Assembly: GCA_014380365.1 (NCBI GenBank)
Contig: JACMJZ010000002.1
Span: 1 to 45,528, forward strand
Length of the DNA stretch: 45,528 bases
Reading direction: 5' to 3'
Source of the DNA: Pyrinomonadaceae bacterium
GTDB taxonomy: Bacteria; Acidobacteriota; Blastocatellia; Pyrinomonadales; Pyrinomonadaceae
Shown: positions 13,654-45,528 of the stretch, one piece after another
Layout of the letters: each line of letters opens with the position of its first letter
Position numbering within the stretch: position 1 is the stretch's first letter
Notes under the pieces: model-generated
Told to the model about the DNA's origin: nothing
The model's input: only the letters and a program-made list of their open reading frames with translations
The model's database searches: none
Translations under genes and position numbers: made by a program

Positions 13654-13730
13654 GCCCGCGTAGCTCAGTGGATTAGAGCGTTCGCCTCCGGAGCGAAAGG
13701 TCGCAGGTTCGACCCCTGCCGCGGGTACCA
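13654..13730 (+). tRNA. tRNA-Arg (anticodon CCG)
   Basis: A complete cloverleaf of 77 nt including an encoded CCA. The acceptor stem GCCCGCG pairs with CGCGGGT (first pair G-U). The anticodon stem-loop is TTCGC-CTCCGGA-GCGAA, giving anticodon CCG for the arginine codon CGG. The T arm is GCAGG-TTCGACC-CCTGC. It follows lpxC by 85 bases. Confidence 0.96.
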
Positions 13731-13737
13731 AAAGAAG

Positions 13738-13775
13738 CAGAGGTCAGAAATCAGAGGTCAGCGATCAGAAAATCA
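13738..13775. repeat. AGAGGTCAG word-repeat, left arm around the four-helix-bundle gene
   Basis: Tandem variants of AGAGGTCAG and ATCAG. The complement is at 14228-14278 on the far side of the four-helix-bundle gene; about 24 of 29 bases can pair. A shorter solitary copy is at 15617-15650. It begins eight bases after tRNA-Arg. Confidence 0.7.
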
Positions 13776-13861
13776 GATGAAAGGAATCTGATAAAAACCT
13801 GATTCAATGCCCTACTCCCACCCGTTTGACAAGGCGACAACCCTGTGTCGTTTTGTAAGCT

Positions 13862-14242
13862 ATGCAAATTAACTCAGCGAAAGACCTCACGGTCTATGCA
13901 AAAGCGTATGAACTGGCGATGCGAGTATTCGAGTTAAGCAGGAACTTTCCAGCTGAGGAGAGATTTGCGTTGACGGGTCAAATTCGTCGGTCATCACGGT
14001 CGGTATGTTTGAATCTGCGTGAGGCCTGGGCTAAGCGAAGATATGAAGCTCACTTCATCAGCAAACTGACGGATTGCGACGGTGAGAATAGCGAAACTGA
14101 TTCTTCGCTGGACTTTGCAAAGGACTGCCGTTACATCACCGTCGAGCAACACGGGGAACTTACGTCCCTCTGCCGCGAAATCGGCAAGATGCTCGGAAGT
14201 ATGATCAGGTATCCACGCGCCTTTCTGACTCCTAACCTCTGA
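13862..14242 (+). CDS. Four-helix-bundle protein (S23-like / Avd-like family)
   Basis: This 126-residue all-helical protein matches the four-helix-bundle family known from 23S rRNA intervening sequences and as accessory proteins of diversity-generating retroelements. Visible signatures are an AYELAMRVFELSRNFP-like first helix, the LTGQIRRSSRSVCLNLREAWA segment and a KLTDCDGENSET third helix. The usual Pro/Ala of the 'S..IP.NIAEG' region is replaced by SSRSVCLNLREA. The function of stand-alone members is unknown. It is bracketed by inverted AGAGGTCAG repeats (13738-13775 and 14228-14278), and its stop codon lies inside the right arm, so the C-terminal LTPNL is repeat-encoded. No reverse transcriptase or variable repeat is nearby, so it is not a complete diversity-generating element. 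Confidence 0.82.
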   Translation: MQINSAKDLTVYAKAYELAMRVFELSRNFPAEERFALTGQIRRSSRSVCLNLREAWAKRRYEAHFISKLTDCDGENSETDSSLDFAKDCRYITVEQHGELTSLCREIGKMLGSMIRYPRAFLTPNL

Positions 14243-14278
14243 CCGCTGACCTCTGATCTCTGACCGCTGACCTATGAT
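14228..14278. repeat. AGAGGTCAG word-repeat, right arm
   Basis: Tandem CTGACCTCTGA/CTGACCGCTGA words, complementary to 13738-13775. It contains the stop codon of the four-helix-bundle gene and ends three bases before the stop of the minus-strand aminotransferase gene. It can therefore serve as a bidirectional 3'-end hairpin only with the distant left arm, or fold locally with weak pairing. Confidence 0.7.
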
Positions 14279-17070: not shown

Positions 17071-17217
17071 CAGGTCAGGTGTCGGGTATCGGGTGTCAGG
17101 TGTCAGGACACACGAAAACCAGGCGCGTCCTTCCTCAAGAAAGATTTGGATCGTTGAACTCCTGAGTCTGACACCTGACACCCGACACCCGACACCTAAC
17201 TTCTGACTTCTAACTTC
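17071..17217. repeat. Inverted word-repeat, GGTGTCAGGTGTC family
   Basis: The left arm 17071-17108 (GTCAGGTGTCGGG words) is complementary to the right arm 17168-17217 (GACACCTGACACCCGACA words), with a ~60-base loop. It sits between the exported protein gene and mscL; the right arm ends just before the mscL ribosome binding site. Confidence 0.75.
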
Positions 17218-44890: not shown

Positions 44891-44977
44891 AAAGAGAGCT
44901 CTGAGAATCGAATAGTGATGTTTGCTTTCCTTGGGCAAGTTCGCGCAAGCGCGAATTTGTTGCTTGAGTAAATTTTA

Positions 44978-45528
<551 letters not shown>

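Follow-up and report, generated by a model that had tools for sequence, protein, structure and literature searches.

Inverted arrays of seven-base words bracket S23 four-helix-bundle genes in a Pyrinomonadaceae genome and in many other bacteria

The window, the whole 45,528-nucleotide stretch of Pyrinomonadaceae DNA analysed here, carries an S23 gene in the loop of a long inverted repeat just behind a tRNA-Arg gene (Table 1). The arms are built from the seven-base word CAGAGGT, and the two arrays (13735-13769 and 14224-14277) enclose a 454-base loop with the S23 gene, which is the only gene between the arms and whose family matches are S23 and Avd. An earlier note on this DNA had paired the arms over about 29 bases with 24 matches. 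That pairing is real, and a better alignment gives two 32-nt arms (13738-13769 and 14238-14269) that are 91% complementary. The note was also right that the stop codon of the S23 gene falls within the right arm. The tRNA gene does adjoin the unit, as it had said, although the gap between the tRNA end at 13730 and the arm start at 13738 is 7 bases rather than eight.

Table 1. Features of the window bearing on the S23 unit and its words
Feature	Position	Strand	Basis or remark
tRNA-Arg (ccg), neighbour of the unit	13654..13730	+	
Whole unit, arm to arm	13738..14277	.	Arm alignment and array calls; left array readable from 13735
Left arm, imperfect tandem heptads CAGAGGT CAGAAAT CAGAGGT CAGCGAT CAG	13738..13769	+	Arm alignment
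S23 / 23S_rRNA_IVP four-helix-bundle gene, 126 aa	13862..14242	+	PF05635 2e-30; TIGR02436 1.4e-28
Right arm, same word inverted	14224..14277	-	Includes S23 stop codon 14240-14242
Short gene-free hairpin, word GTCCAAA	16258..16371	.	Word of S23 units L096 and L104 in relatives
Short gene-free hairpin, word GGTGTCG	17074..17217	.	Matches own-genome S23 unit L004, score 19
Short gene-free hairpin, word GTCCAAA	20579..20709	.	
Short gene-free hairpin, word GTCCAAA	24495..24608	.	
Short gene-free hairpin, word GGATGAA	38059-38129		No S23-unit word matched at the score used

The score of the arm alignment is 24.5, whereas 300 dinucleotide shuffles reached 12.5 at most. When folding of the 550-nt strand is predicted, pairing of the arms makes up the outer stem (z -5.16), and none of 100 shuffles was equally stable. 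A weakly informative search found no sigma-70-like promoter site inside the unit. There is no rRNA match at the unit; the window's LSU rRNA match is at 44977-45528.

The protein clearly belongs to the S23 family, scoring 105.6 bits against PF05635 (curated cut-off 33.8) and 99.3 bits against TIGR02436 (cut-off 24), and it also matches PF22296 (E 1.6e-13). Its predicted monomer structure is a four-helix bundle with a mean pLDDT of 96.8. Chains of the solved S23 proteins 2GSC (XCC0516) and 2RLD make up the top ten fold matches. They are followed by Avd of diversity-generating retroelements (4DWL, TMq 0.76; 8UB8, TMq 0.73), with 15-18% identity to the solved Avd chains. The S23 protein of X. campestris is a pentamer and the family has no known function, according to the part of PMC4990558 available to us. 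Estimates of dN/dS for S23 lay between 0.04 and 0.19 in the 6 of 12 protein pairs for which they could be made (dS was saturated in the other six), and on these ratios the gene is under purifying selection.

The arrangement in the window is repeated throughout its genome. All nine PF05635 genes found there lie between inverted word arrays, with nine different words, and at each locus the true flank pairing outscores both the shuffled pairings and all pairings among the nine. Thresholds, including the arm score of 15, were chosen after a first look at these nine loci. A search of relatives gave S23 matches in 50 of 59 genomes and none in the other 9. The loci from the window's class comprise 29 returned at the best places and 41 genes fetched by place (40 regions), a non-random set drawn mostly from the window's genus. 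Over all the sets analysed, L010, L254 and L266 were dropped as their flanks were cut. Of 78 S23 genes in this set with both flanks present, 75 have flank pairings exceeding 100 shuffles (L033, L038 and L090 being the exceptions), and 74 units with an arm score of at least 15 were used for later counts. In just 42 of the 78 did the true pairing outrank every other possible pairing, because many loci are orthologous or have words in common. The arms mostly have a period of 7, with other periods in some, and 77 of 118 measured arms are 4-5 heptads long, a count that leaves out units with weak period 7.

Inverted flanks of this kind were found at 1 of 30 PIN-domain genes in relatives and in none of 400 random windows of the window's genome. 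The earlier note had proposed comparing the flanks of family members with those of other genes, and the enrichment it looked for is there. The single PIN gene with inverted flanks, L212, has a longer and different repeat. Irrespective of the word, the left arm is G-rich (G 36.7%, C 14.1%), with more G than C in 116 of 129 units from relatives and named loci together.

The unit structure is general. Among named loci from many phyla, 78 of 80 had usable flanks; 55 of the 78 are bracketed, and 23 have no arms by the rule applied. With phyla assigned from record titles, the bracketed loci are 11/16 in Bacteroidota, 7/13 in Pseudomonadota, 9/10 in both Planctomycetota and Acidobacteriota, 5/8 in both Patescibacteria and Bacillota, 3/3 in Chloroflexota, 2/2 in Desulfobacterota, 1/2 in Nitrospirota and 1/1 each in Verrucomicrobiota, Gemmatimonadota and UBP2. 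No arms were found at the single named loci of SAR324, an archaeon and an unassigned bin. A search with one query protein gave S23 matches in 42 plasmid records out of 72,556, and 50,697 phage records yielded no match, so S23 seems mainly chromosomal. Six of the 42 plasmid records were taken further, and the S23 loci of all six are bracketed. One of the plasmid genes, L308 of an Anabaena plasmid, has cas6 on one side and cas4 on the other, within a type I-D CRISPR locus, and is still bracketed by word arrays.

A second family has arrays of its own. Genes of the GxxExxY / PDDEXK_3 family (PF13366) in relatives (L160-L189) have inverted word arrays at 22 of 30 loci. Their best periods are longer (8-12) and their words are other ones; 2 of 1,628 comparisons matched their arms to those of S23 units.

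Word and protein are coupled. Among the 74 units, pairs at non-orthologous sites had the same word in 46 of 80 cases where the proteins matched at 160 bits or more, in 26 of 114 at 130-160 bits and in 7 of 2,476 below 130. The 72 same-word pairs at 130 bits or more compare with at most 20 in 5000 word permutations. A protein tree of 58 units in 12 word groups needs 12 word changes, against at least 38 in 200 shuffles, in a count that omits 16 units with singleton words and in which single-linkage grouping merges some unlike words. The orientation of the word is also held constant, with 102 same-orientation pairs against 1 opposite among 2,701 pairs. Each protein lineage thus tends to have its own word in a fixed orientation. 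The window protein is itself an example, being 79.5% identical to that of L087 in another genome, with which it has the CAGAGGT word in common at a non-orthologous site. In many orthologous units the word is kept across species. Genome G010 has two S23 units about 2.6 kb apart (L109), both with the GAGACGGG word.

Between taxonomic groups, in a comparison that omits one pair of arms at least 90 nt long, protein pairs at 150 bits or more had the same word in 6 of 7 cases at score 13 and 4 of 7 at score 15. The word was the same in 9 of 80 pairs at 130-150 bits and in 127 of 5,945 below. Coupling between groups is clear only among the few closest protein pairs. L310, on a plasmid of the cyanobacterium Trichormus variabilis ATCC 29413, is 72% identical to L084 of the window's genus. 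Coupling does not in itself prove recognition, as linkage of the arms to the gene would be enough to yield it if the unit spreads as a block.

Could inverted arrays arise by chance from slippage-prone, low-complexity DNA beside the gene? Tandem heptads are slippage-prone in principle, but this explanation is refuted by the shuffle, random-window and PIN-gene controls, by the fixed orientation of the words and by the way in which they follow the protein tree. We give it virtually no chance of being correct.

The words are also found in hairpins that contain no gene. A scan of 845,528 bases of the window's genome gave 81 word arrays, against 1 in shuffled sequence. Among the 81 are 21 pairs that lie inverted within 3 kb of each other: 17 have loops of 7-62 bases, three have loops of more than 1,400 bases and are copies of a common word, and the one intermediate pair, with a loop of 454 bases, is the S23 unit of the window. 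Under a looser rule the same 845 kb gave 26 short hairpins, 22 of which have a word that matches one of the 74 S23 units and 12 of which match a word of the genome's own nine units. GTCCAAA, which three of the five window hairpins carry, is the word of none of the nine S23 units of this genome.

The arrays go with the S23 genes across genomes. Six genomes with S23 (1,299,900 bases) had 126 heptad arrays, called at lags 7 and 14 after removal of three arrays of N in G008, and 28 hairpins. Seven genomes without S23 (524,780 bases), unmatched for lineage and sampled at five contigs each, had 2 heptad arrays and no hairpins (Mann-Whitney p 0.0026). With other periods added, the counts with and without S23 were 154 against 12 arrays and 28 against 1 hairpins (p 0.012). 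G027 is an exception, having 13 S23 genes yet 2 heptad arrays per 100 kb.

The existence of short gene-free hairpins would fit a model in which some other enzyme, such as a Y1 (RAYT-type) transposase, moves the hairpins and the S23 gene rides as a passenger in the loop. The window's genome does have seven Y1_Tnp matches (L300-L306), five of them above the cut-off, and word arrays lie within 1.5 kb of two (L301 and L306). The other five loci have no word array, however, and the Y1 genes have as their best inverted flanks, judged by eye, mostly palindromes of another, REP-like sort. The tracking of S23 lineages by the words on the tree, the near absence of heptad arrays from the sampled genomes without S23 and the purifying selection on S23 also speak against a mere passenger. 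We consider this model very improbable.

Comparison of units places their edges close to the arms. Nine pairs of related units from non-orthologous sites were compared, and in all of them the similarity in DNA breaks off no more than about 32 nt from the arm ends. L082 and L105 are the clearest case, matching in one block; the other pairs match piecewise. At one site two different units are found: the flanks of L014 and L109a are 96% identical, but their proteins are 32% identical, their words differ and their genes are on opposite strands. By eye, the change begins directly after an in-frame stop codon. At this one swapped site no target duplication was seen by eye, and no transposition or excision of units was seen. 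At the site of L103, genome G000 carries a same-word hairpin in which, by eye, a 16-base loop replaces the gene, and at the site shared by L025, L102 and L108 it has a short hairpin of another word. Units face gene 3' ends in 99 cases and 5' ends in 41, as called by a rough ORF caller.

The window unit's own site is harder to follow. The earlier note had suggested looking behind the tRNA-Arg in relatives for an empty site; no clean one was found, because synteny is unconserved on both sides, and the swapped or gene-less sites are at loci other than the tRNA-Arg neighbourhood. Orthologues of the aminotransferase side were found in relatives, with a tRNA-Arg adjoining only at the window's own locus. 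On the lpxC side, 11 of 16 congeners, counting the window's genome, have the gene. Behind it (L149-L159), G004 and G012 have GTCCAAA arrays in a hairpin; no array was detected in the other eight relatives, including G006, which by eye has another inverted repeat, and a tRNA-Arg is there in none of the 10. At the lpxC site short hairpins turn over, but an empty counterpart of the window unit is not seen there.

The position of units at gene 3' ends could reflect a service to the host. The arrays would then be sites bound by S23 with a cellular job (in the nucleoid, at mRNA 3' ends or in transcription), maintained by selection and spread through recombination without being selfish. Purifying selection on S23 is consistent with this, as are the conservation of the word across species in many orthologous units and the few plasmid and absent phage matches to the one query. 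The turnover of sites, the swapping of units and the lack of any S23 match in 9 of 59 relatives fit it poorly, and we regard it as improbable.

The same build is found within an rRNA gene. On a plasmid of Azospirillum lipoferum, a 23S rRNA gene (cmscan 1743.7 bits across the unit) contains the S23 unit L312, whose arms are heptad, with a lag-7 identity of 0.72 against 0.33 in shuffles. No rRNA inserts were found among 20 of the 80 named loci. The accessible part of PMC4990558 describes a Coxiella insert with a 28-bp terminal stem. The 5' side of this insert has tandem GACAGAT heptamers in a strain-variable number, and RNase III excises the insert at its heptad stem; the same text calls the origin of rRNA intervening sequences unclear. 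PMC11270868, in the part we could use, places 23S_rRNA_IVP genes at several sites in the 16S and 23S genes of CPR bacteria. The window unit had been read in the earlier note as a possible escaped rRNA intervening sequence. L312 confirms that a 23S insert of the same build exists, but the direction is better reversed: L312 would be a landing site, and instead of being the source of the class, which is mostly intergenic, the rRNA intervening sequence looks like a special landing site for it.

Excision by RNase III in Coxiella (PMC4990558, seen in part) raises the possibility that the whole element works at the RNA level. Its arms would be an RNA stem cut by RNase III, S23 would bind RNA, and the unit would spread by way of RNA or cDNA, helped by a reverse transcriptase acting in trans. 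This would suit the resemblance of the S23 fold to Avd, a component of the ribonucleoproteins of diversity-generating retroelements, and the position of L312 within an rRNA gene. Sites behind gene ends would be transcribed, and the window's genome has one RVT_1 gene. That gene, however, is the sole reverse transcriptase gene found in a search of this genome and is on a contig without S23 genes, and the gene strand differs between the two units at the L014/L109a site. The RNA-level explanation seems unlikely, but it retains a real chance. The present data do not separate folding as RNA from folding as DNA.

The best reading of the unit is a repeat-plus-protein element resembling REPIN/RAYT but with an unrelated protein of the Avd fold. 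The window feature would be one copy of a dispersed element whose arms are mostly 4-5 tandem 7-base words and whose loop holds the S23 gene. The Avd-like bundle, a solved relative of which is reported to be pentameric, would recognise consecutive heptads of the folded-out single strand, whether DNA or RNA, perhaps with one heptad bound per subunit. Recognition would lead to the copying of the protein's own unit to new intergenic sites, often just behind genes, and short hairpins with the same word would be copied in trans by the same protein. The chemistry would be supplied by the host or by other enzymes, the protein being no known enzyme. The earlier note had already likened the unit to REP elements with their RAYT gene and cast the protein as a possible handler of the repeats. 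A repeat-plus-protein unit is supported by the enrichment of arms and by the tracking of lineages by words; as for the handler role, we infer that the S23 protein probably reads the word and drives copying.

A wider generalisation can be put forward tentatively, and on it our own judgement is nearly balanced, leaning slightly to doubt. There may be a bacteria-wide class of element in which a non-enzymatic pentameric bundle, with one heptad per subunit and words specific to each lineage, spreads hairpins. This class would include the rRNA intervening sequences, the GGGAATC repeats of Xanthomonas and many unexplained intergenic heptads, and GxxExxY/PDDEXK_3 would run a parallel system with longer periods. 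Hairpins of heptad words give a setting to the S23 family, for which there are solved structures and many genomic copies. They offer a possible origin for rRNA intervening sequences and may account for intergenic heptad repeats that have lacked an explanation. They also suggest a readable code between protein and nucleic acid, in which a single protein lineage corresponds to a single 7-base word.

The window unit lacks a defining feature of every known kind of element with which it was compared. The rRNA insert is the known special case of the class, unrecognised as such in the literature searched, and the general class of S23-heptad hairpins was not found in that literature, which consisted of the accessible parts of open-licence PubMed Central papers. 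In the IS/MITE class the autonomous element carries a transposase, whereas the window unit has none between its arms. Type III toxin-antitoxin systems were set aside, as the arrays here are on both sides and inverted.

Two published sets of heptad repeats can be compared with these arrays. The GGGAATC repeats of Xanthomonas (PMC4692102) are likewise dispersed heptad arrays, mostly intergenic and mostly of 4 units, with 186 arrays and 70 convergent inverted pairs in X. campestris; they have been treated as G-quadruplex repeats, and the main text of that paper contains neither 'S23' nor 'four helix'. The TAACTGA repeats of Beggiatoaceae (PMC4679880) are abundant, intergenic 7-mer tandem repeats, but they are direct repeats with one inverted set, and again neither term occurs in the main text. 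No link between S23 and word arrays appears in the accessible parts of PMC4679880, PMC11637426, PMC10910872, PMC8700078 or PMC8934634.

With bAvd of diversity-generating retroelements the window protein has in common its fold and the PF22296 match. Those systems differ in that the S23 genes of the window's genome have no reverse transcriptase nearby, the sole RVT_1 match being on contig C5. The 23S intervening sequences of Coxiella and Leptospira also have an S23 ORF looped out by a terminal inverted-repeat stem. The window unit, unlike them, is intergenic and outside rRNA genes, and the S23 class has gene-free satellites and many words.

In REPIN-RAYT systems the gene-bearing copies are flanked by REPs. 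The window class resembles them in that hairpins without a gene carry the same repeat as units with one (22 of 26, or 12 of 26 for the genome's own words). A classical RAYT explanation was rejected, since Y1 genes are present but their flanks are mostly of another kind. Both systems consist of scattered intergenic inverted-repeat hairpins whose repeats are linked to particular proteins (PMC3116915, in the part available). The differences lie in the protein, which is an S23/Avd four-helix bundle in the window unit and a tyrosine (HUH) transposase in RAYT, and in the repeat, where the arms of S23 units are tandem heptads in a fixed orientation and REPs are short palindromes.
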